Origin: Polytrichum commune
Taxonomy: Eukaryota > Streptophyta > Polytrichopsida > Polytrichales > Polytrichaceae
Assembly: GCA_950295325.1 (NCBI GenBank)
Contig: OX485804.1
Coordinates: forward strand, 55,478,429 to 55,542,428
Reading direction: 5' to 3'
DNA length: 64,000 nt
This document shows positions 4,567 to 57,270 of this stretch, in pieces. A program made the position numbers and the translations under genes. Under the pieces are notes generated by a model that had not been told where the DNA came from, ran no database searches, and saw only the letters and a list, made by a program, of their open reading frames with translations. Within the stretch, counting starts at the first letter, position 1. Each line of letters starts with the position of its first letter.

Positions 4567-4973
4567 GTATTTCCTACTATTCTTGTCATTGTACACCTAT
4601 ATGTAGTGATTTATTGGATTTGCACCCCATTGCACTCCATGCAGTGGTTAAGGATTTGCCTCTTACCTCACAAACAGTTGGTAGTAAAGTTGTTTCCCCC
4701 CTAGAAGTATGTTCTCAGATTCCTCAAAAGGCCATATTAATTTACTCAGTGGGTTGTATCTGTCAAACCACTGACACCACATCTTAATAAAAATTCACGT
4801 AGCAGTCAATTAGTTATGATATAAATGTGTTGTACTTGCATCTTGATGTACAGTACTGCATTTGATTTTGTGGCTAGAGTAAGGGACAAGAGACACCACC
4901 TCCCTCCGTGCCTCATTTCTTAGGGTTGGGACATCCCTCATAATGGGTTGGGCCTACTTGTGGGGAAGGTTTT

Positions 4974-36720: not shown

Positions 36721-39700
36721 TTCATAATGGAAGGTGTACCATTGGCATCTAATTATGATGCCAAATTAGAGCAATATTGTCGTTTTGAAATGGCAAATTG
36801 CGGAAGAACTTCATCCTCAATGAGTTTTTGCTACATTGGCTCAAGAATTTGGGACAAAAAAGGCCGGTAAGACCTTTTCTCAGGTTTTCTTTGAAGGTAC
36901 TCCAACCTTTGAGAACCAAAAGATTACAAAGGTGTATTAGCACACTACAAGGGTTTGTTGCGACAACTCCGAGTGATGATGCTGGGGGCAAGGATGTTGC
37001 CTCTTCGTCAAGTTGACGATCGAAGACCGTGCCGGCACTAGAGGTGGATCCTTTGAAGAAGAGGGACACCACAAAGTTTGATGATTGACCATTGGAGTTG
37101 GGTCCTCATCTTATAGGTGCCGAAGCACGAAGGGTACGGACATTATTTGTTCGTATTGAAGTTGTTTTGCCTTTAGCCTCCACAATCTTGAGGGCTATAA
37201 AGGAAACCTATTTGGATACAGCTAGAGGACGATCATCCCATCTTTAGGCATTCATACAAGTTAAGTCTATCACAAAGGATTGGTGTCCAAGCTCGTTGTG
37301 ACGAATTATTGGACGCAAGTTTAGTGAAATTATCTAATGGGGAGTACGCTTGTGCAGCGGTCATGCCTTCAAAGAAGGATATTTTTGGTAAATGGATGGA
37401 GAAGAGAATGTGTGGGAACTATCGTCCAGTCAACAAGAAGACAAAGTTGGACCATTATTTAATGCCAACTCCAGAGGAATTGTTTGACACAGAAGGTACG
37501 CTCGAATTTTTAGCACATTAGACTTGAGATCCGGCTATCACCAGTTGCCTCTTTGGCTCCAAGATCGAGTCAAAACAACATTTTGGGAGATTGATCGCGA
37601 CGGAAATGATCAACTCTATCATTGGAAGTTTCTTCTTTTTGGTCTCAAGAATGCACCGGCTGAGTTCCAGGGGGTAATGGACCAAGTGCTAGTAGGGTTG
37701 CCCTTTGCTCGGTGCTATATTGATGATGTTATCATCTTTAGCAATACACCACAAGAGCATGTGAGGCACTTGCAAGCAGTTTTTGAACGGTTATGTAAGT
37801 GGGGCTTACGTTTACACCATGGAAAATGCAAATTCTTCCATGACCGCCTACCTTATCTAGGACATATGATTGTACCGGGAGGACTTGGGGTACAACAAGC
37901 AAAGGTGGATGCTTTGCAAAAGATCCCGGCACCTAACAACGTTCCACAACTTTGTGTTTTCCTCAGATTGGCAAACTATTACCATCGATTTGTCAAGGAC
38001 TTCAACTTGATTGCCAAACCTCTTACTATGTTTACAGGCAAGGACCAAGATTGGACTTGGGTCTGCGAGCAATGTCATTCCTTTGAGACATTGAAGCAAA
38101 TGTTGGGATCTGCTCCAGTGCTTCGACATCCCAACGTTACAAAAGTTTTCCAACTCCATACAGATTGGAGTGCATTGGGTTTGGGAGCGGTCTTGACATA
38201 AAATGATGATGTAGGACGAGAGTATGTTATCGCATATGCTTCACGCAATAATAACAAAGCGAAGTCCAATTATTCATCCTATGAGGAAGAGGCATTGGCT
38301 ACTATTTGGGCCATCTCTCATTTTAGACCATATTTATATGGTCAAAAATTCCCTTTGGTGACCGATCATCAACCATTAAAATGGCTTATGGAGTCGGATA
38401 AGCTCACTGGTAAGCTTGCTAGATGGGCATTGTTACTCCAAGAATATGATTTTGAGATTGTTCATAAAGTGGGAACCTCTAACTTGGATGCAAACGGACT
38501 CTCTCGCAATCCAAGTCCATCAGAAGAGGATTTAACTGGGGCTAGATGGCACGAAGATTGTGATCGAAAGGCGGTTCCAAGTTGGCATGCTTTGGTATAT
38601 TTGGCCTTGATGGTTAATTCAACTTCTGAGGAACCAGATCAAGGTGCACATGAAGAATCTAACAAGTCCCAAGTGATTGGTGATATCTGGGAAGACCTTC
38701 CAATCTTGCACAAATTACAGCATGGGACATATCCTACATCCGTCTCGGCTGTGGAGCGAGATAGGATTTCTCACCCAATAACACGATTCCATTGGGATAA
38801 TGGATTGTTATTTCGATTGTGCCCTGATGGAGCTAGGCGTATAGTTCCAAGGCCTAACCAACATGTTTCCTTAGTACGACAAGTACATGAGGAGTTGGGT
38901 CACTTTGGGGTGCGTAAAACACATTCGATATTAAGCAACTGATATTGGTGGATTGGCATGTACCAGCATGTTGCTACCTATGTTGGTAGGTGTGAGGTAT
39001 GTGGTTGGATTTGGTCAAGTTTCAACACCTTGTCACGCCAATTACAACCTTTACCCATTATGGGTTTAGGATATTGATGGAGTTTGGATTTTGTGGGACC
39101 ACTCACCCCTACACCATGTGGGGCAAAATATGTTTTGGTGATGGTAGAACATATCAACAAGTGGATTGAACTTATTGTTTTATCCTAAAACTCATTTGAG
39201 TTGGCAGCCGCTGCATTTTTCGATCATGTTTTAGCACGATTTGGTGCACCTGCTAAGGTGTTAACTAATCAAGGAAGGAAGTTTCTTGGTTCCTTTGAGG
39301 AATTGTGTACCAAGGCCATCGTACTACACCACGAGATCATCTAGAGTCAGATGGTTTGGACGAATGTATTGTTCAAACGATCAAACGGGGTTTGTGCAAG
39401 TATGGCCTACTTCGTGGCAACCATCATGATTGGGACCTTATGCTTCCATGGATAGCCATGGGTTACCAATTTAGTTGGCTTCATATAGCCCTTACCCATT
39501 GTTGTATGGAAGGGAACCTATGTTGCCAAGTTCTATTAAAAAAAACTAAATCCACCTATAGATTTGGATGACCTAGAAATTAGGGCTCGATGTCTATATG
39601 AGTGAGCTGAGTTCTTCAAACAAATCATGCATATGGCCATGGAAAATTTGTCTATTGCCCAACATCGTGATACATTGTGATATGCTTGTATTTGTAGCAG

Positions 39701-40010
39701 TGCTTATCGACCTCAATTGCGATGTTTCTCGAAGGGAGATTATGTCTACCTACAACGTGAGGCGTCCACAACTTTGGATGTCAAAGCAGGGCGTACAATC
39801 CTTCGTGTGAAGGATATTATTCCAAGTGGCATTTTGCTACTTGAGGGGAAGGATGGACAAGAATGTCGAGAACATTCTAAGAATTGCGCTCCTTGTCACT
39901 TTCCCATTGAGGGGACCTTGCATCCCGAATGGGCGGTGGCGCCTGAAGGTCTTCCATGTTTTATTTGTGGTGAGAAGAAAGGTGCAGCAACCATGTTCTT
40001 GTGTGACACA
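36721..40010 (+). pseudogene. Ty3/gypsy polyprotein remnant, N-terminal part
   Basis: Domains in order are: degraded gag/protease region (36721-37300); reverse transcriptase (37309-38200) with LRSGYHQLPLW, FGLKNAPAEFQ and the active site YIDDVIIFS; RNase H (38220-38510) with a TDHQPLKWLM motif; an H2C2 zinc binding region (about 38870-39010); an integrase core (39080-39500); and the first half of a PHD-like finger (PCFICGEKK..., 39950-40010). Stops or frameshifts occur near 37520, 38200, 38940, 39075 and beyond. In the integrase the second catalytic Asp appears as Asn (VLTNQGRKF). The element is dead. The 9.2-kb element starts at 40011 after the duplicated GTGTGACACA. Confidence 0.85.
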
Positions 40011-40072
40011 GGGGAGTGCTATCTTATGAGCGGTGAGCGATGAGCGGTAACTTATGAGCAGTGAGGAAGATG
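40011..40072 (+). repeat. Left terminal and subterminal repeats of the MULE
   Basis: The terminal repeat is followed by head-to-tail heptamers TGAGCGG, TGAGCGA, TGAGCGG, then TAACT and TGAGCAG. Such subterminal arrays are usually transposase binding sites; that role is inferred. Confidence 0.75.
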
Positions 40073-40193
40073 AAAATTTTGGTAATAGGGCCACCAATAT
40101 CCTATAACCGTGGAATTGTGGCCTTAAAAATGATGATTTTAGGGTTTAGTAATAAGAGGGTTGAGAAGGATAAACAACATGAAGTCCAAAAAT

Positions 40194-43100
40194 TTATTCA
40201 TCAGTAGTAGCACTAGACATGAAACTATCTTTTGCCTCATCATCTATATATATTCGAGCACCTTTGCATTGCGAATAGATTTTGGAACTATAGCAAGATT
40301 CTTCATTTGGATCCGAATCTTCGAGATTCAACATTGCAATTGCAACATTCTCGGCATATGATGGGAGATGCGGGCTACGGCTTGGACTTCGTAGGAATTG
40401 TCTATGTGCCCAAAACGGGAGACATGTCCTCTTTCCAATCGTATTCCTGAAATCAAATCGATGAAACATGTAAATAATGTGAAGAAATAAAAATGAACCA
40501 ATGAATTGAATGAAACGAATGAATTGAATAAAAATTTATTGTATTAAAACTTACTCACACTCAAATTCAAGCATCTCCTCATCCGAGAGGTCATCATCTT
40601 CTTTTATGAGATCTTGTATATTCTCCTTAGATGACCCCTCTTTCAAAACGTTTTCCAAAAGCGGTTTCAATATGTGCTCAAACATGTCATTATCACCCTC
40701 AAATGCAAGAAGATGTCTGCCACATGCGTGTGTTGCTAGGATAGAAGCTCCAGTGGAACATGTCAAATCAACAACGCGTCCATTCGATCGTGTAAACAAT
40801 TCAATAAGATCTTGAAAAAAAAACGCGGCGATTTTTTATATGGCCCCCTCCAAGGTCTTCCCGATTTTTGAAGAAGCATGTTTTTTTCATCCACAAAATT
40901 GAAAAGCAAGTTTTTGCTTTTCAATCTAGTGCAAAAAAAAGTGGAGTTTGGTTGTCTCGTGGATTTTGTGGTAGTAAAATCCCTTACCAAGACATGAGCC
41001 ATAAATGCCGGAGTCTACAAAAACATGTAAATTGTGTTAAAACTATATACAATACAAATAACACCAAAATAATTAAATAGAAACAATTGTGATGTGTTAT
41101 ACTTACGGTGTAGGTTGGAGACTCCGGATCCTTGAACACCATGTACGAATTGAGGCAAATAAAAGTCCTAAGAACTTTCATGTTGCCGTTGTGTAAGGTT
41201 GAATTCAAAACCTTCTTGGTTTGCATATCGATAGCAGAAAATACTATGAGGATGCCATCATCAGACAAGATGGACTTGCACAAGGACATTGTTGCAACCA
41301 TCCAGTTCTTGTCATATTTATTCCAAAGAGGAATTTCAGCAGGTCTATTGGAGAGGTTGAAGTTAAGACCGTCGGGAAATTGGAGAAAAACCAGGTCAAC
41401 GACAAAGGGAGTCGGACTTCCCATGACATGAAATTCGCGATTGTCATTGAACTGAAATACCACAACATATCACCATATAAGACACAAAATAAAACCCAAA
41501 TGAAAGTAAGAACATTAGAGAAAATACCAAAACAATAATACTTACGTTTTCAATAAATTCCCGCCATTGGATCCACTCAGGAGGGCCTACATCCACCCCT
41601 TCAGACTTGTTCTTGACAGCAGTAGATCGAGCAAACGAGAGCGTGAAAAAGTTTTTCAGTATGAATAATTCTTTTCTCAAAATATCCGTTGGCGCACAAT
41701 GAATAGCGTCATAGGTGCTGGAGTAATGAAATTCCAATACATCGCACCCAGACTTTGAACTTTCGCCTCCAAGTGGATTCTTATCCAAATCATTGGAAAG
41801 AACAAGCAATTCTTCATGTTGTGAAATTTCCGATTAACCTTGTATTTTGGTTTCAGGAACATGTTTCCTCTTACGACGTTTTGTCTCTTTTGGTTCGGGT
41901 TCTCTAAGTTTAAGCTGCACAATTTGTGCTTGCAAAATTGCAGTATCACGAGGATCCACATTTTTAGCATAATTTATCTGACGGATTGTCTTCTCACTTG
42001 ACGGACATGCATCCTTAGGACAATCAAGATACCAACTACAATCCTCATAGTGTGGGAGCGACCAATCCGAACAAATGTCAGTAGTGAACATGCATGAATC
42101 TCCTGCACCAGTGTCACGCCAATTTGGGAAAAAACGAGGTTCCCCTATAACGCATTTATGTGGAATCAAAACATATCGAAAATACCTACACACAAAAATA
42201 TTGTAAGTCAAATATTCCATGACAATTTGACAAATGGAATAAAAAAATCAAAAAAATAATAAGATTAAGTTGTACCTGTATAATACACGTTTCATAGCAA
42301 GATCAATATTAGGTTGCTCATCCCAACCGTTGTGTTTTTTTACTTTTCCGCTTTGGAATTCACGATTAATATTGAATTGAAAGCCGCAAACTTCCAGGTT
42401 TGGATATACTTCGAGAGAGTAGGCACATCTGCAGGCAATTGAAGAGGAGATGAAAGAATACTTTGAAGCTCTTCGATAGCTTTTTTTTCCAACTGTGCCC
42501 AATATGTAGACTTTGATAACCAATCATCAAGTGCAGAATCAGAGAGGGGCGATTTCGGGAAATGCAATGCATCTTTGTCAAATCTATTGCCATTCCACAG
42601 CTTGAGCCATCCAACTTTGACTTCTGCATCCACATTACTGACAGCAACACGATGGAGTTTCTCTTGTAGCATTTCAAGCACCGAAAATGAACCCCAATGG
42701 TGTTTAACTTCTTCAAGGAAAGCAGAGGTAAGGTTGATGTCGGCAATCGCTAGTGGTTTCGTAAAACTAGAAGATAACATTGCACGTTTTTTGTTGACAG
42801 CTGCGGACATTGCTTTTGAAACTCCGTCTGATGTCCGTTCAAGAGGATGAGTTTCATTGTACTTGTTGAGAGCAATATCGCTAGCCTCAGCAAGTTCTTG
42901 CTGAAAAATCAAACAAAAGTCAATATTTATAAGTACATATAGATGTAATGTAAAATGAAGATGAATAAACATAAGGCACATATTAGCAATGGTAGAAGAA
43001 CTTACATGTACATGTAATCCAAAAAAATTGGTCGTGTAAAAAAATACCAAGTTTCGACAGACTTCTCCTCACATCATTTATAATTCTTTCGATCCAGTTG

Positions 43101-44029
43101 CTTTCTGAAGCAAGTCAAAGGCATGGTGCCAATACTTTGCATCCGATATAAAGTATGCACCAAATTGGTGGATACGTGAGAATTTTCGGTTGACCTGAAA
43201 AAAACATTAAATTGATTAGATTCATGATGATATAATTTGGGAAACAAAATATAAACTAAAAATAAGTGTAAAAAAATAGGTAAGAACATTACTTGTTGAT
43301 GTCATGCATAGCAGTCAACAAATTTGGAATGTCGTCAGGCTCGGGCGCCAAAATGATAGAATCCACAAAGACATGACGTTCATAATCTTCGGTATATACG
43401 CGGTCAATATAATTTTTCCAAGCAAGAAATCTGTGATTTCCATCCCATATAAAAAACATCTTGTTCTTGTATGACGTCAATGACAAATCTGTATCCAATT
43501 GAAATTTAAACAGGGCATTGGCTTGAGCCCAATTTGAGCTCCAAGATTCGCGAACCTTATCATCCACGAATTGAAAGTTTCCCTTATAATCGGAGGCCGA
43601 TATATAAAACACACGGTCACCATCACGATAACCATTGAAAAAACCAGCCTCCAATTTAGTAATGTCACCCTTCAAAGCAGGACGCACAATCGGCATAGGA
43701 ACCATGCGACATAAGGGTACACGCAAGCGAGCATTAGGTCCAACACGGATTGAAGAAATTGTGGAAGTGGAATTGATCTTTTGTTTGTTCGTAAGCTCCC
43801 ACACTTTCTCTTGATAAGTTTTATTGTCACCATCATTATCTTATACCGAGTCAAAATCATCGAGAGATTCATTTATTTTATTCTTATTCTTATTATGAAG
43901 ATTTGACGATATATTCTGATGATGATGAACTTGTTCAGATGGACGATCTTGAATTGAATGCATTGTGGAATCATCAGCAGTAGAAATAGGAGTTGTTATC
44001 TCCAAATCCATTGATTGGTCGTAAAACAA
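40194..44029 (-). pseudogene. ParB-like / DNA methyltransferase-like gene carried by the MULE
   Basis: Seven exons with good splice sites are proposed: 44029-43293, 43195-43006, 42900-42276, 42185-41546, 41451-41107, 41014-40555, 40446-40194 (TAA). Exon 1 encodes a ParB/sulfiredoxin-type domain (FFIWDGNHRFLAW, with flanking conserved blocks). Exon 3 is helical. Exon 4 has a Cys-rich part (DCSWYLDCPKDAC) and a basic tail. Exon 5 has VDLVFLQFPDGLNF, where N4/N6 methyltransferases have DPPY, then SILSDDGILIVFSA. Exon 6 has a motif-I-like GRVVDLTCSTGASIL. Catalytic motif before motif I is the beta-class order. Lesions are a TAA in exon 1 (about 43840), frameshifts in exons 2, 3 and 6 (the last in a T9 run) and a TAA in exon 4 (41834). 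The active copy may methylate or bind DNA for the element; this is inferred. Confidence 0.7.
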
Positions 44030-44231
44030 ATGAAATAAGTTTCATAAATATTTCAAAACCAATAGCAACACATTAGCAATAACATTACAAAAACAACAGC
44101 AATAGCAACAACAATAAAAACAGAATACCACGAACAAAGGGAAGAATGACAAAAATTATTCTGGACACCGCCATTTGCACCTTTAAATACTGTATGATTA
44201 GGGTGGCCGCTCAATCCAAAACTACAAGGGC

Positions 44232-44259
44232 AGACCCTGTGCGTTAACGCACAGGGTCT
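44232..44259. promoter_or_regulatory. 28-bp perfect palindrome
   Basis: The half is AGACCCTGTGCGTT and the second half is its exact reverse complement, with GTTAAC at the centre. It lies about 45 bp upstream of the minus-gene TATA-like box. Confidence 0.85.
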
Positions 44260-44298
44260 GTGTGTCCAACTATAGGTCTACCAAAGTTGGGCGCGAGG

Positions 44299-44482
44299 TT
44301 TGGGTAGAACGACCCAAACTGTCCACACGGTTTCGATCGAGCGACCCAAACCGCCTACAGCCAGTTTGGGTCGAATGACCCAAACTTTCTCCGCGTGGTT
44401 TGGGTCGAGCGTTCCAAACCATGCTTACAATGTGAGTCGAACGACCCAAACTAGGCAGACAGTTTGGGTCGAACGACCGAAA
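44299..44482. repeat. Palindrome array 1, six 20-bp units
   Basis: Units related to TTTGGGTCGAACGACCCAAA start at 44299, 44331, 44365, 44399, 44431 and 44463 (spacing 32 or 34 bp). Each is a near-perfect inverted repeat with 1-4 differences; the 12-14-bp spacers are not conserved. It lies in the promoter between the two MULE genes. Confidence 0.9.
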
Positions 44483-44716
44483 CTGTCCGCAATTTACGCT
44501 TGATTATGCGCAATTACCCAGTCATCACGAAAGTGCAAACAAACCTTGTACTGCACATGTAGCTGAGAGAGCTTGAAGCGACGAGCTCAGGTCCGACAGA
44601 TGAGAGAAAAAAGACTGAATGCTTTGGGGGTGTGGCAATTTATAGTACTCGTCCCTACAGCTATATTTAGCGTGGCTCTTCGTGGCCCCATATAGCCACT
44701 ATAAAGTTGCCAGCGT

Positions 44717-44733
44717 AGACCCTGTGCGTTAAC
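44717..44733 (+). promoter_or_regulatory. Half-site AGACCCTGTGCGTTAAC
   Basis: This is an exact 17-bp copy of the left part of the 28-bp palindrome. It sits 11 bp after the plus-gene TATA-like box, near the expected transcription start. Confidence 0.8.
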
Positions 44734-46464
44734 ATTTGTGCATCTGTTGATCTTTCAAACACATCACCATTTCCATTTAGAAGTGTTCATTCTACTCCTT
44801 CTCAACTTCCTATACATGTAGCCAAATCCCCTTGCGGTCTTATGTACAAGAAGGTGGTTCCCCAAATCTCACCTTCTCAACGTCCTCCACTACACCCTTC
44901 CCCTTCATCTACAGGGTTGACTATGGTTGATGCCTTGAAGCTGACAAAGTCAAAAAAAAGATCAAAGTCCGATCTTGAATCCATTGATTTTGACAGTATA
45001 GATGTTCGTGAAGTCAAATACTTACCATCTTCTTTTAATGATGATGTTTTGTTTCTCTTGCCTCCTGTGGCATTCAAAGCTCCAAGTACGTATGGTCGCT
45101 CAATGGACGGCATGGACAAGATGTGCGACGGTCACCCTTGGTGCACCACCAAAACCACGAATATCCAAAATGACTTTGGATTGTCCTTCCAGCGCTCTAC
45201 TTGTGCTGGTCATCTCCAATGTCATAATGACTACTGTGATTACATGAATCGCAATGGGGGCCTCCGGAACAACACTGAGTGGGCCGGTTCAACTCCTATC
45301 CCATTTGCTGTGGGTATTGGAACCCTACTAAGTCCACTGTCGAGTGTAAGGTATGTCGTTCCACACCTGTGTGCATTGCTTTGTGTAATGCTCGAATCAT
45401 ATACATCCACTCCACATCCGTTGGAATGTCCAGGGCTTGCATTCATCTTGGTGTACATGATCACCCTGTGGCCAATGGCACATGCCGTGAATCATTAGAC
45501 ATGGCATACCAATGTGTTGCAAATGAAGTATTGAAAACACCAACAGCAAAAAATTCAGCCATAGTTATGGCGGCGAGCAAACAATTCTTGGCCGATTACC
45601 TTCTCAAATCTCCCGCAAATGTCGAAGGCCATCATTTGGTTGGTTCATCCCTAGATGTCGTCATGGACAAATTCAGCACTCTTACGTCTCCAAATTGTCG
45701 TAACTTTGTATCTGGATCAAAGCATTTTTGCGTAGTGGAATGGGAACTATGGATAGTATTATGGCGCTCAAAGACCACTCTGCTTTCAAATTCGTCTATG
45801 GTAGTCGGTTCCCAGGGCAGTCAAAGGACAAAGTGTTTGTTTTTAAGATGTCTGTAGACCTTCCAGGTAGTGGTGTGGAGCTTGTGAAGAGGATGCAAGT
45901 CGGTGGGGATATGGAGAATTCATGGATTATATTTGACCATGTCAAACGTTTGAAGGACTGGACGACCATGGCTTGTCATGTGTACGATAGTCGATACTGT
46001 AAAGTGTTGACTATTGCGTGTTGTAACATGCAATTTGAAGATGATGCAGCACAAATTCTCTTTTGGGAAAATTTGAATGTTGTTATGGTAGAAAATGGTG
46101 TATCAAACGTAAACTTCAAAGGGTTTATGGCTGATAGTGCTCAAGCTAATTGGAATGCGGTGAGGGCGATTTACGGGGATGGTGATCCAAGTCTACCCAT
46201 GATTGCACGTGAGCGTACATGTCTTTTCCATTGGACCGCAAGCTTGGATAAGGTGACCCAAAAGTATATCAAACCATCTTTGCAATTTCAACACAAACAA
46301 ATATGCAAGGATTACAAAGACGCGAAAACAATGGACGACGCTGAGACCAAGTACCATGTGATTCGTTCTTGGTGGTTGTCATCTGGAGCTGCCTCCGAAG
46401 AAGGCATCCTTGGCCTTTCATAGTGGTTGGGATTTTGGCACTTTCGTTACAGACAATGGGATGG

Positions 46465-47022
46465 CCATATGCTACTTGTAAGTACATATCAAACTTCATT
46501 ACTCAATGTAATATATCTTATGTTTTTCTTATCTTTGTCTTTGTGTGTTGTTCATAGGATATGATAATAGAAGAGCGTGCGGGAATGCCAACATGCAACC
46601 TTGCAGAGACTGTACACAACAAACAACAAACAATTTGGGTCGTTCGACCCAAATCTTGTAGGCAGTTTGGGTCGTTCGACCCAAACGTGGCAGCCATTTT
46701 GGGTTGAACGACCCAAACCTTATAGGCAGTTTGGGTCGTTCGACTCAAACGTGGCAGCTATTTTGGGTCGAACGACCCAAACCTAGATATATAATCTATC
46801 TTATGTTTGTTTTATCCTTGTATTTGTATGTTGTTCATATGCTAATTGTAAGTACATATCAAACTTCATTATTCACTGTCATTCACTATCTTGCCACTGA
46901 TATATAATATATCTTATGTTTTTCTTATTCTTGTATTTGTGTGTTGTTCATAGGATATGACAATAGAAGAGCGTGCAGAAATGCCAACATGCAACCTTGC
47001 AGAGACTGTACACAACAAATGG
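46465..47022 (+). repeat. Duplicated intron-exon junction in the transposase gene
   Basis: The segment from GTAAGTACATATCAAACTTC through TTCATAG and the exon start (GCCAACATGCAACCTTGCAG) occurs at 46479-46621 and again at 46851-47020. The first exon copy runs into palindrome array 2 instead of coding sequence; the second continues the frame. Splicing from 46479 to 46954 would skip the array. Confidence 0.75.
46634..46781. repeat. Palindrome array 2, five 20-bp units at exact 32-bp spacing
   Basis: Units TTTGGGTCGTTCGACCCAAA or its AA-centred form start at 46634, 46666, 46698, 46730 and 46762. The 12-bp spacers alternate between two types (CGTGGCAGCCAT-like and CTTATAGGCAG-like), giving a 64-bp higher-order period. 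The array is less diverged than array 1. It sits in a duplicated intron/exon segment of the transposase gene. Confidence 0.92.
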
Positions 47023-48249
47023 CTCCAACAGTCCGGCAACAAGATGATTTGTTTATATGAAGCTACAGTGGACGACATGATCCGTGCCTTCATGCAAATT
47101 GCAAATTACCGGACATGGTTGAAAGGGGGGTCTGATGGTAAAGGTCCTGATTTGGCATCCTTGAAACTCAAAGCGGCTGCCAGGTGTGGAGATCCAAAAA
47201 TGTTGGCCGATGCCATGAAGTCTTATCCAGGGGCAGAAGACGTCAAGACTAGAGATTGTGCATTGGAAGGTTCAGAGCTCTTTGGTTCCACCAAACGCAA
47301 ACTCAACCTACCACCAGGTGCTGATTGTGACTCTCATCGACCCGACAAAGTGAACTATTCCATTCCTCGTCCCAACACCCGAGCAACTCGTCAACGCATA
47401 GAAGAATCGTTGAGTTCTGCAATTCGTGGTGTGGCTCATACTACATCCGTGTTAAAGACAAATTGTCTTGCTTCCAAGTGGCACATTGCAAGATTACCAC
47501 CCAACTCAGCCAAACGATGTTGGGCACTGCAGGCCATCACAGGGATTATGTGCAATGCCAAAGTCGGGACTGGGAAACATGGCACACCTGCTCCAACATA
47601 CAAAGGGCTCAGGAAGGAATTTCGCTCTCCCAACAATGTGAAGTATGAATTTTGGTTTTGCCCTGATGACATCAAACGTTGTGTGAATGGCAGTAAGAAG
47701 AAATATGTGTTGGACTGGCCTATAGTACCCAACACGTGGCCGGTAAAGATAGGTACCAATCTATCGCGAGAGGAGGTTTTGGCACTTGAAGATGCTGGAT
47801 TTCAACTACAGCAGAGGGAGGCATTGTCCCCTCGTCGTAGGCTTTCAAAAATCGCAACTCTCCCCATCCCTCGCTCGCATTTTTCTATGCCACCAAACCC
47901 GGACGCCCACCCTACATTCAGGTTTGGGAAGACAGTGCGTTGTAATCCAACAGCACCGCTAGCGGATCACAAAAACAAATGGGAGAGCGCCGGACTCATG
48001 GAGGGTTACTATGTGGTTGGGGTCACTGCCATTCCATATCCGGGCTTTGGAGTGATAATCAACATTGTCTCCAAGCATGATATCACATATCATGTTACAA
48101 TTGGCAACATCCCGCATTGCACATGTCCGGATTTCACAAAAATGTCCTCTCATGCATTGGGAAACAAAGGAAAATGGGTGTATTGTAAACATCTTTATTA
48201 TGTGTTTAGATTTTTGTGCAAAGTGGATTACGAGAGTGACAAGTTCATT

Positions 48250-48985
48250 CATACACCTACATATACCTATAACGAGGTCATGCAACTACTTGAACTTGCT
48301 GGTATTATAGAGTGTGAGTAGTATTGCAAATGGTCTATTAAGTACCATATATTTGAATGTCAAAATATGACATGTTTTGGTTTGGATTTTTATAATAAAA
48401 ATCAGCAATGGGCTGGAAGTATTCCAAATGATTCAGTAACTTCATTTCTATTTAGACTACGACCCAACTGTGAGCGGTTTGATTGATTGACATGGATAAA
48501 TAATAACAAGTTTCTAAAAATAAAAAATAATTGAGAAGATTCTACGCACATCCGCGTAGTAACGTCTTCTTGGTATCCGCCTATAGATTATTCCTGCTTT
48601 ATCACTAGCTCAATTTGGGATAGCACCAGTCAATGTAACCAACCGGATTCGAACCCGGGTTGATACAGACCTAATACTAGTCTCTTACACAACTCGCATC
48701 CACAGGCGGATGTCTCAAAACCTAGTAGTTACCTACATATTGACTATTTCTAATATCTAATTTCCTTTCATTTGTAGATTCTGGGCCTTAATTCAACCCG
48801 TGAGCAGTTTGAGTGGCTCACAATTATGGCACCTACATGTACGTATAATGAGGTTATGCACCTACTTGAATTTGCTGGTGTTGTGGAATGTGAGTAGTTG
48901 TGCAAGTATTGGTTGTAACTACATGTATAAGGATGTCAATAAATGACATGTATTGGTTTGGATTATTATAATAAAAATCAGCAAT
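48250..48985 (+). repeat. Partial duplication of the transposase 3' end
   Basis: The last ~20 codons and 3' flank (48253-48410) recur at 48826-48985, including the same stop region and TAATAAAAATCAGCAATG. A SINE-like insert lies between the copies. Confidence 0.7.
48535..48728 (-). mobile_element. Possible tRNA-derived SINE
   Basis: Read on the minus strand it contains GGGTTCGAATCCGGTT, a perfect pol III B-box, about 50 bp after an A-box-like GGATGCGAGTTG. It ends in a T-rich tail (AATTATTTTTTATTTTTAG). No clear target duplication was found, and it does not fold as a tRNA. It lies inside the 3' flank of the MULE transposase. Confidence 0.4.
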
Positions 48986-49151
48986 GAATTGAAAGTGTTT
49001 TAAATGATCCATGGAAATAGGATCCTTTCACTTGTGCTTCATTTAAAATATTGGCAATTTACAATTGAAAATATGCAATTAATTTATCAAAATTTTGGTT
49101 GTGTATCCTAAACCCGTGTGTCTTTACTAAATTTGGAATCATTGCTCATAT

Positions 49152-49227
49152 GTTACTGCTCATTGCTCATGTGATACTACTCACCGCTCACCGCTCACTG
49201 CTCATCGCTCATAACATAGCTTCCCTC
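49152..49227 (-). repeat. Right terminal and subterminal repeats of the MULE
   Basis: Read in reverse, the terminal repeat is followed by TGAGCGA, TGAGCAG, TGAGCGG, TGAGCGG, TGAGTAG, a spacer, then TGAGCAA, TGAGCAG and TGAGCAA. There are more heptamers than at the left end, but the unit and order are the same. Confidence 0.75.
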
Positions 49228-49237
49228 GTGTGACACA

Positions 49238-49735
49238 TGCCAACAAGGCTAGCATATGGCATGCTTAAATCCGCCCTTGACTTCACTACCTTCAGGTGAT
49301 TGGATTTGCCCTCAATGTCAAAACTCCTTGGAACATGCTTCATCTTCGGACAAGGGCTGATTATTTCTAGTATGGATATTCATTATTGTTATGACGACAA
49401 CATTGTCATTTTGGTGACTAGGCGCCAAATACACGGCAAGACACAATTTGATGGGTGGATTGCGAAAAGATTCGACAACAAAATCCATCCAAGGCGACTA
49501 AGGATGGGGCATTACATTAGTATCCAGCCTACAAATCTTGTTGCGATGCTTTTATCAAAGTTATTCTAATGCTCGTCGGCCGACCCTTGACGTCAACAAA
49601 GGATGTGAAGAAATTTTGAGCTTCATCTTTGTTGTGGCAATTGAACCAACTACATTAATTTGTGTAGGCCTAGTTGATAGACATGGGTGTATTTCTCAAC
49701 TAAGGGGGGGGGGGGGGGAATTGAGAATGTATTAA
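49238..49735 (+). pseudogene. Ty3/gypsy polyprotein remnant, C-terminal end
   Basis: Immediately after the right target duplication the interrupted frame resumes and completes a Cys4-His-Cys3 finger (HMACLNPPLTSLPSGDWICP), with one stop replacing a residue before the His. The remaining ~140 codons are degraded, and a G run lies at 49706-49718. This piece proves that the 40011-49227 element landed inside the finger-coding part of the gypsy element. Confidence 0.8.
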
Positions 49736-54927: not shown

Positions 54928-57270
54928 TTGTTTAAGTGTTTTGAACGTATATCCGAACATACGATGATATCATTTGAAAACGAGGCCGCTAGAATCATTG
55001 ACAAGTTCAAGGAAATGAACTTCAATCTTTGGAAGTTCAAAATCGAAATGTTATTGGCATCCATAGATCTTTGGTATATTGTGGACGGATCTAAGGAATC
55101 TCTATCTTTCAATGCGGATCCCAAAATGTTGAAGGAGTACCAAAGACGGGTCAAGAAGGCCATGTCCATCATTGGCCTCAACTTGGAAGACAACCAACTT
55201 TCGCACATCAAGAGTTGCAAAGGACCCATGGATGAATGGAAGACCCTTTGTAAAATTCACAAGATGCGAAGTTTGTCTAACATTCTTTTCATTTGCCGCA
55301 AGTTTTTTACATGTAAGATGTAAAAGGATGACGACTTGGTGGACCACGTCAACAAGGTCAAGGCGCTCGCAGATCAACTCGCTTGTTTGGAGGTACCTGT
55401 GAGAGACAAAGACATTGTCATGACCTTGCTTGATAGTTTGTCGGCGTTATTCGAATACTTGATCACCACTGTGAAGACGATGCTAATGAAAGAACTTACG
55501 ATAGACTACGTGAGGACGCATTTAATACATGATATGTCAAAGCGCAAGGAGAAGGAGCCCGAAGGTGAGGATACCGCCATGGTGTTGCGACAAGGCAAAA
55601 ATGGCAGCTCATTTCCGCGCCAAGGCACAAAATCGTGTTATTATTGTGCCAAACCGGGCCACATTGTGTGTTTTTGCTATAAAGCTATGAACAAGAAGCG
55701 AGAACAAACGAAGAATACAAATGACGATGATGTTTACACATTTTTAATGCGTAATGAAACACATTCAAAGAGCATGTGCAAGTGGATCATGGATTCGAGT
55801 GCTTCTAAGCACATGATTTCGCATAAGGCTGCATTTGACATGTATAAGGTAATCACTCCATGCAATGTGCATTTTGATGATAATAGCATTGTCCAAGCTA
55901 TCAGAATGGGATTCATTGTTGTGGAAGCAATCTTGGAAGATAGAATTTATCCAAATTTGTATAAAAGATATGCTCCACATACCCAAATTGCATGTCAATT
56001 TGCTCTTGGTGAGCAAATTTGTGTGGAACGGTTTGAAGGTCTAATTCAACATAAACGAATGCGTTGTCAAATCTTACAACGGTGATGTCATTGCGCTTAT
56101 AACACATTAACATAACTTATCATCATTAAATGCATACTCGTATTAGGAGCGGCCACAAATTGGGAGATCCACCAAATGAATGTAAAAATGGCATTTTTGA
56201 ATAAAATATTAGAGGCGGAAATTTATGTGGATCAACCGGAGGGTTTTATATAAGAAGGGAAAGATGACTTTGTGTGCAAACTTAAGAAGCCTTTGTACGG
56301 GCTCAACAATCACCGAGAGTGTGGTACCACCATATCGACTCATTTTTCATTAACGAGGGTTTTTGTAGTAGCCAAGCGGATCATTTGTTGTACATCAAAC
56401 AAACGGGTGAGTATTTGTTGATGGCAACCTTCTACGTAGATAATTTAATCATATTAGCAAGCAATGTAATCCAATTGAAGTGGCTCAAATTGGAACTCGA
56501 GAAGGAATTTAAGATGAGGGATCTCGAAGGGTTGCATTATTGCCTAGGGATGGAATTTGAGAGGAATAAAGAAACCTGTACCATTATCATGAACCAAAGG
56601 AGCTACATTGAAGAGGTCTTTAGGTGTTTTAACATGGAAGAATGCAAACCAATCGGAACTCCATTCAATGTGAATTTAAAATTGTTAAAATTTTCAAATG
56701 AAAAATTTGGGAATGTGCAAAGGAAAATGGATGATGTTCCATACAAGGTTGGGGTAGGATCTCTCATGTATGCAATGATGGCCACGAGGGTCGATATTAC
56801 ATTTGCAGTGAGTATAGTGAGCCAATTCATGTCGAAGACCGGGGTAGGATCTATCATGTATGCAATGGTGGCCATGAAGGTTGATATTGCATTTGCAGTG
56901 AGTACAGTGAGCCAATTCATGTTGAAGGCCGGTCCACTGCATTGGATGGTTGTGAAACGCATCATGAGGTATTTGAAGGGCACTTTGGACTTCAAATTAT
57001 GCCTTTGAAGCAAGGATGTTGTCTTGAGAGGTTTTTGCGATGCAGATTGGGCGGGAGATGCAAATGACTGGCGACCCATCACGGGATACATGTTTTTTGT
57101 TGGCATTGGAGTCATTTCGTGGAAATGCAAAAAAACAACCAATCATTGCATTGTCTACAATGGAGGCGGAGTACATGGCTACTAGCCATTGTACTAAGGA
57201 AGCGGTTTGGCTTAGGCAACTTATGTCACCTATGTCTACGACCCCTCCCCCAATTAATTGCACTTAGGTG
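54928..57270 (+). pseudogene. Ty1/copia polyprotein remnant, integrase deleted
   Basis: Gag begins near 54961 (ISFENEAARIIDKFKEMNFN) and shifts frame at about 55323-55336. It ends with a CCHC knuckle (CYYCAKPGHIVCFC, near 55640-55680). The protease site follows as WIMDSSASKHM near 55785, with Ser where Gly is usual. After about 55930 the sequence jumps to reverse transcriptase (NVKMAFLNKI, KPLYGL near 56290, YVDNLIILAS near 56440; usual copia motif YVDD). Most of the integrase is therefore missing. RNase H (LRGFCDADWAGDANDW, about 57025-57070) and the C-terminus are frameshifted. A 90-bp in-frame duplication lies in the reverse transcriptase tail. No 3' LTR is seen. Confidence 0.85.
56752..56931 (+). 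repeat. 90-bp in-frame tandem duplication in the copia RT
   Basis: The segment GGGGTAGGATCTCTCATGTA ... GAAGACC is repeated as GGGGTAGGATCTATCATGTA ... GAAGGCC. It adds 30 residues without breaking the frame. The minus-strand copia copy has only one unit. Confidence 0.88.

Follow-up and report, generated by a model that had tools for sequence, protein, structure and literature searches.

A high-copy DNA transposon family of Polytrichum commune with a transposase gene and a divergent ParB-like, methyltransferase-fold partner gene

The element and its two genes

The 64-kb window analyzed here, by which we mean the whole stretch of DNA under study (C2:55478429-55542428, contig OX485804.1), comes from the genome of the moss Polytrichum commune and contained a transposable element at positions 40011 to 49227. 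The element belongs to a family of DNA transposons that is present in high copy number and has two genes arranged head to head, one for a transposase and one for a partner protein that combines a predicted first exon resembling a nuclear localization signal (NLS), a part that is ParB-like by its motif and a part with the beta-class methyltransferase fold. The element was flanked by a perfect 10-bp target-site duplication, GTGTGACACA, at positions 40001 to 40010 and 49228 to 49237. The left inverted end (40011 to 40066, plus strand) carried subterminal repeats of the TGAGCGGTGAGC type, and the right inverted end (49159 to 49227, minus strand) carried repeats of the same type, the inner limits of both having been set by eye. 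The terminal inverted repeats were short and imperfect. Aligned locally, the two ends reached a top score of 43, whereas none of 200 shuffles exceeded 30; in this alignment the subterminal repeats are paired out of register, and agreement of the outermost bases was recognized by eye. The inverted ends, the perfect duplication and the two divergent, intron-containing genes described in the initial annotation were thus all re-found. When the element was excised in silico, a PHD-finger frame was regained in which CFICGEKKGAATMFLCDT is joined directly to CQQG...CPQC, save one TAG in the right flank. The insertion target (39681 to 40010 and 49238 to 49390) looked like the tail of a retrotransposon-like pol open reading frame (ORF) with a PHD-finger-like end, these labels being assigned by eye.

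The transposase gene was located on the plus strand. The first of its exons in the window (44734 to 46477) was truncated at the 5' end and contained a WRKY-GCM1-like finger, recognized by eye, as well as two 1-base deletions and a TAG codon, whereas the second (46954 to 48321) contained a SWIM-like zinc finger, CTCPDF...CKHLYY. The protein encoded by the majority sequence of the family was 1,167 residues long. The SWIM model PF04434 was matched only weakly, with E-values (0.039 and 0.1) that fall short of the curated cut-off. In single-sequence scans, no Pfam model for Mutator-like elements (MULEs) was matched at E<=10 by the majority protein of the window family (family 1) or by the transposase exon of a second family (family 2, described below), nor at E<=1 by the window exons, and membership in the Mutator superfamily is therefore provisional. 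It is nonetheless plausible from the zinc fingers and from the length of the duplications, which was 10 bp in the window copy and in the 7 sister copies in which both ends were present (7 of these 8 duplications were perfect, and one had a single mismatch) and falls within the approximately 9 to 11 bp of Mutator elements. The presence of terminal inverted repeats also agrees with this superfamily. It was also noted that pieces of the transposase gene were duplicated at 46560 to 46990 (intron and exon start, with palindromes) and at 48760 to 48900 (the C-terminal end), as was also the case in the family majority.

The partner gene was located on the minus strand. In the majority sequence of 21 copies it was open over seven exons (3,240 bases including the stop codon) with GT/AG borders, and the complete gene is predicted to comprise 8 exons and 1,173 codons, its exon 1 and its splicing being predictions. 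In the window copy, exon 2 (43293 to 44020) encodes the ParB/sulfiredoxin-like domain with a DGNHR motif, but contained an in-frame TAA and an acceptor site changed from AG to AC. It is followed by exon 3 (43006 to 43194), with a premature stop, exon 4 (42276 to 42900), which had no Pfam match, and exon 5 (41546 to 42185), a linker with a basic KRRKRK stretch. The first half of the methyltransferase fold, with LQFPDG at the position of motif IV, was encoded by exon 6 (41107 to 41451), the half for S-adenosylmethionine binding, with motif I as VVDLTCSTGAS, by exon 7 (40555 to 41014), and the C-terminal end with the stop codon by exon 8 (40194 to 40446).

Exon 2 is here called ParB-like, a putative assignment based on its motif and on the architecture of the protein. 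In 62 sequences, the G, N and H residues of the [DE]GNHR motif were invariant and the R was present in at least 90%, which fits a G-x-x-R following a strand, which we take to be the signature of the ParB/sulfiredoxin domains. Neither the window exon nor the majority exon was matched by any Pfam model, a PDB search with the exon gave no ParB match, and a tblastn search for phage relatives at an E-value of 1e-5 gave none. Pfam scans of the 62 members gave scattered weak matches, such as DUF1015 in 3 (best E-value 0.068) and CB_ParB_C in 2 (0.16). In an hhalign comparison with seven phage ParB domains, the best match was placed exactly at GNHR and covered 14 columns with a Probab of 7.8%; its score was 25.7, and none of 20 column shuffles exceeded 18.2. 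The ParB/sulfiredoxin label proposed in the initial annotation is thus less well supported, its basis being a motif match, and no significant Pfam or PDB match emerged. A match of the ParB profile to eL24 (E-value 0.005, then 0.055) was taken as chance, and the AlphaFold model of the exon, with a predicted local distance difference test score of 46, was too poor for use. An alignment search gave 448 protein relatives at E<=1, and among the 120 listed some were located on contigs as long as 727 kb.

The C-terminal part of the partner protein is, as confirmed by profile comparisons, of the beta-class N4/N6 methyltransferase fold, in agreement with what had been proposed. The majority domain matched PHROG_67 with an E-value of 3.7e-8 and PF01555 with an E-value of 1.7e-4, the latter below the curated cut-off (0.031 when the whole protein of 1,173 amino acids was scanned); PF01555 was found in all 4 members scanned, with a best E-value of 1.7e-4, again below the cut-off. 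A profile built from four subfamilies matched a DpnA-like structure (1.2e-7) and CcrM (8.2e-5) in PDB, over the S-adenosylmethionine-binding part only. In hhalign comparisons, the methyltransferase profile matched 5 phage methylases with a Probab of 96 over 65 columns and 3 phage ParB-methyltransferase fusions with a Probab of 84 (E-value 7.5e-6) over 186 columns, the alignment starting at motif IV. The latter comparison was a repeat with a changed cut, after two of five phage sequences that by eye were not of the beta class had been dropped; an earlier comparison with the C-terminal parts of all five had given a Probab of 0.13.

As an enzyme, this fold member is putative. Motif IV read ADIPEN, ADLPEG, VDVPDN, ADLPEG and LQFPDG in the five subfamilies, that is, D-[ILV]-P-[ED] in four of them and QFPD in the window family, and two of the phage methylases had DVPY and DLPY. 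Since motif I has been kept, binding of S-adenosylmethionine has probably been kept as well. Whether the protein carries out ordinary N4/N6 methylation is doubtful in view of the altered motif IV, and a role as a reader or clamp may be considered.

Sister copies and a second family

A genome-wide search (407.8 Mb, 64 contigs) with the left 1,001 bp of the element gave 473 first-look candidates, of which 40, including the window copy, were scored; all 40 were long matches with 97% to 100% identity. We read 20 sister copies, which together with the window copy make up the majority sequence. An extra segment of about 2.1 to 3.6 kb, mostly near 2.3 kb, was present at element position 4722/4723 in 19 of the 20 sister copies, the far side of which lay beyond the 10-kb stretch read in L009. 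The junction is at 44732 to 44733 in the window, and the missing segment contains the N-terminus of the transposase, the region between the genes and, on the opposite strand, a basic ORF. Because 19 of the 20 sister copies carry the segment, the window copy is a deletion derivative; it is decayed, dead and not full length, with both genes broken: it has stops and frameshifts, and a splice acceptor has been lost.

In the majority sequence, an acceptor site was located before the ParB-like exon, and the donor site of the basic ORF joins it in frame. The ORF is therefore likely to be exon 1 of the partner gene, with a predicted basic, NLS-like product, and the ParB-like exon, to which the number 1 had been given previously, would rather be exon 2. 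A separate, small third gene was also considered for the basic ORF and was set aside, as the in-frame join fits exon 1 better.

Eight sister copies were joined from two stretches each. Seven of these had both ends, were 10,189 to 11,577 bp long and were flanked by 10-bp duplications of seven different targets (6 perfect and 1 with one mismatch), whereas the eighth, L022, had no recognizable right end. The two genes, whose joint presence elsewhere had been set as a check in the initial annotation, are found together elsewhere in the genome. Over the left 4.1 kb, the 21 copies differed by 1.5% to 2.3% from the majority, except for L010 (5.6%) and L013 (25%, with large deletions), and 50% to 73% of the changes were C-to-T or G-to-A. 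This excess had no strong context preference (3.7% at CG, 4.1% at CHG and 3.3% at CHH sites), a pattern that DNA with methylation in every context might show.

A search with P0029, a distant relative of the ParB-like exon, gave 1,271 first-look candidates across the genome; 150 of these were scored, and 120 of the 150 had no stops in the matched stretch according to a hand count. One locus of a second family (L038+L037+L039, G000:C1:62607500-62633499) was read and is described from the interior of the element, with exons assigned by eye. Here, the N-terminal part of a transposase was located head to head with a basic ORF resembling exon 1, followed by a ParB exon and methyltransferase exons. 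The two genes co-occur in this second transposase family, which was 40% identical to the first in the N-terminal part of the transposase and 40% identical in the ParB core. At the far end of the same locus, we observed a second, partial transposase start with a basic exon and one more family-2 palindrome. Methyltransferase exons were present in 4 of 6 further loci, namely L040, which belongs to the same family as family 2, L041, L042 and L045; none were seen in the stretches read of L043 and L044. The methyltransferase domains were 27% to 52% identical to that of L042.

A search with the family-2 transposase gave 101 hits. Within 15 kb of 38 of these there was a ParB place from the list of 150, and all 38 pairs were divergent. 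When the ParB places were rotated, the mean number of such hits was 1.16 and the maximum 7 in 1,000 rotations. Three of the 38 hits shared one ParB place, leaving 36 distinct ParB exons. The ratio of nonsynonymous to synonymous substitution rates (dN/dS) in the ParB core was 0.13, 0.15 and 0.17 in three related, unsaturated pairs (144 codons; dS 0.20 to 0.68) and 0.14 between L040 and family 2, with very few changes; the other pairs were saturated, with dN/dS of 0.13 to 0.32 where a value exists. Judged from these comparisons of sequence, the pairing of transposase and partner gene is old and co-evolved, as had been suggested, and purifying selection acts on the ParB-like exon. On the grounds of this selection and of the recurrence of the divergent pair, a fresh gene capture was rejected. 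Pack-MULEs carry host fragments, have no transposase and are under no lasting selection; in the family described here the transposase is present and paired, and the partner is under selection.

Seven further family-2 places were listed at 100% identity (rounded) over 426 residues, with open frames of 766 residues, and the copy that was read, L057, differed in one residue. The near-identical copies with open frames suggest that family 2 has moved very recently and has probably been active very recently.

A viral origin was also considered, but pattern scans of viral contigs gave no relative of the transposase exon or of P0029, and this candidate is unsupported. Inside the element, at about 48540 to 48740, we observed a tRNA-like sequence with the appearance of a short interspersed element (B-box GGTTCGAAYCC), which is also part of the majority sequence and was therefore inserted before the amplification; ARAGORN and Rfam searches of the window gave no match. 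Copia-like retrotransposon ORFs were recognized by eye at 55324 to 57008 in the window.

Palindrome arrays and a possible role for the partner protein

The palindromes pointed out in the initial annotation were confined to the element and could be refined into phased arrays. The palindrome TTTGGGTCGNNCGACCCAAA, with up to 3 mismatches, had 11 matches in the window, all of which were inside the element, as compared to an expected 0.01. Six were arrayed 32 to 34 bp apart at 44299 to 44482, in the intron that precedes the ParB-like exon, and 5 formed a second array with a spacing of 32 bp at 46634 to 46781, in the transposase intron. Another palindrome, CCCTGTGCGTTAACGCACAGGG, was present, when up to 4 mismatches were allowed, once in the window copy, at 44235 to 44256, and 3 to 17 times in each of the 20 sister copies. 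All 21 family-1 copies contained 3 to 19 palindromes of the TTTGGGTCGNNCGACCCAAA type, mostly 32 bp apart, some copies having been read over 10 kb only, and the intron that precedes the ParB-like exon contained 3 to 15 palindromes of the kind phased at about 32 bp in each of the 21 copies.

At the family-2 locus, there were 76 palindrome matches with arms of at least 8 bases, perfect ones being counted twice, versus 3 in a shuffle. None were of the TTTGGGTCGNNCGACCCAAA or CCCTGTGCGTTAACGCACAGGG type, and 66 represented one and the same palindrome with the core GAGGCCTCGGATCCGAGGCCTC, of which 34 copies were located in the stretch that separates the ParB exon from the coding pieces upstream of it, at distances of mostly 126 to 129 or 179 bp. 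The two families examined thus carry different palindrome words in the corresponding intron. A single perfect palindrome of 32 bp was also observed in the partner-gene region of another subfamily (L044:2324-2355).

The explanation that we favor, with about even confidence, is that the partner protein reads the palindromes of its own family and thereby protects, marks or regulates the element. The protein would enter the nucleus, bind to the arrays that its own family carries and mark or coat the element at these sites. This could keep the divergent promoter active against silencing by the host, direct the transposase to the DNA of the element, or both, with the methyltransferase fold acting more as a reader or clamp than as an enzyme. 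In a bolder and rather improbable version, each family would have its own self-recognition set resembling ParB-parS, consisting of a private intronic array and a partner protein that spreads or marks against silencing, with a methyltransferase fold that has gone from writer to reader. If this were true, palindrome and reader would differ together between families and constitute a self/non-self code of a eukaryotic transposon. The arrays provide a direct, testable hypothesis for how an element recognizes itself and resists silencing, and family 2, with its near-identical copies and open transposase frame, offers a system for testing it.

Several observations weigh against a protein that reads palindromes. 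The ParB profile match was below significance in Pfam, PDB and hhalign, the canonical (D/N/S)PP(Y/F) form of motif IV was absent in all five subfamilies, with E or D at the aromatic position, and each of the 21 family-1 copies had at least one premature stop within the seven exons of the partner gene. No listed ParB place was found near 63 of the 101 transposase hits, which the listing of 150 of the 1,271 candidates may or may not account for; more pairs may exist. The family-2 palindromes were studied at one locus, with exons assigned by eye, and 32 of the 34 were perfect over 16 bp, a conservation that is partly by construction since the 16-mer was the search word. Moreover, no more than one palindrome was present in any of the six other loci over the stretches read, which end short of the upstream introns.

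Being part of tandem repeats, the palindromes may be no more than minisatellites that have grown in a long intron, the job of the partner protein being unrelated; we consider this possible, although unlikely. Their variation in number, from 3 to 19 among the family-1 copies, is indeed typical of tandem repeats. However, two different palindromes in the corresponding intron of two families are not readily explained in this manner, nor is the conservation at the family-2 locus, where the three informative columns on each side of the 16-mer were 100% conserved and extended the palindrome to 22 bp, as compared to 49% to 94% in the adjoining columns.

The partner protein could also be a cofactor of transposition that binds to the internal palindromes or to the ends and assists in integration or excision without acting epigenetically, much as has been proposed for MURB in the case of MuDR of maize. 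The divergent arrangement in all 38 neighboring hits and the similar divergence of the two genes between the families are in line with such a role, which nevertheless seems doubtful, as the palindromes are internal and away from the ends and a methyltransferase fold would be an odd choice for a cofactor.

Bacterial beta-class methyltransferases often methylate palindromes, and an active enzyme might write N6-methyladenine or N4-methylcytosine onto the element's own palindromes. The beta-class fold, the kept motif I and the D of motif IV, which is kept in 4 of the 5 subfamilies, would allow for this, and self-modification has been suggested for algal proteins in the passages on them in PMC12477816. 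Yet an active writer is improbable given the replacement of the aromatic residue in every subfamily and the additional loss of the D in the window family. Finally, a passenger gene captured by chance in the style of Pack-MULEs, which are known in plants, is highly improbable and largely refuted by the pair test, the same pair being found in the same orientation in diverged families, with broadly matching exon content and under purifying selection.

Comparison with known systems

Among Mutator-like elements, MuDR contains the genes mudrA and mudrB. The element described here resembles Mutator-like elements in its 10-bp duplication, its zinc-finger transposase with a putative SWIM-like finger and its second gene, and differs from them in that no Pfam MULE model was matched and in that its ends are short and imperfect. 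To our knowledge, the partner gene is unrelated to mudrB. A search of titles and the opening parts of abstracts gave no Mutator-type case of a ParB-methyltransferase partner gene. The claim in the initial annotation that such a partner gene was novel was nevertheless too strong, because transposons of algae have already been reported with accessory genes of this kind.

According to the passages on it in PMC12477816, Sola1-1_Ec32 of Ectocarpus carries a gene for a protein of 1,104 amino acids, ParB-like and with an N4/N6 DNA methyltransferase, opposite its transposase. Similar proteins in transposons of green and red algae are mentioned in the same source with reference to Iyer et al. 2011 and Petroll et al. 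2025. Sola1-1_Ec32 and the moss element are both DNA transposons with a partner gene of about 1,100 codons opposite the transposase (1,104 amino acids versus a predicted 1,173), but Sola1-1_Ec32 belongs to the Sola1 superfamily and to a brown alga, whereas the moss element has 10-bp duplications of the Mutator type. Palindrome arrays, motif IV and selection are unmentioned in that account of Sola1-1_Ec32. The likeness to the algal accessory genes consists in a ParB-like part and a methyltransferase on the strand opposite the transposase, and is one of architecture and position. If our interpretation is right, ParB-methyltransferase proteins of prokaryotic type have become a durable component of DNA transposons of a second kind. 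At first look, a single genome gave 473 candidates from the window family and 1,271 when the wider group of ParB exons was considered, not all of which were scored.

Fusions of ParB with N6/N4 methyltransferases are frequent in phages (PMC12704722), and the words "transpos", "plant", "moss" and "mutator" are absent from the main text of that source. The phage fusions compared here (AcaML1, NatCom_34192 and WOVitA1) share with the partner protein the order of a ParB part followed by a beta-class methyltransferase, as well as similarity in the methyltransferase profile. They differ in that they are only 404 to 428 amino acids long, have the canonical motif IV, DPPY, and are encoded by free-standing phage genes.

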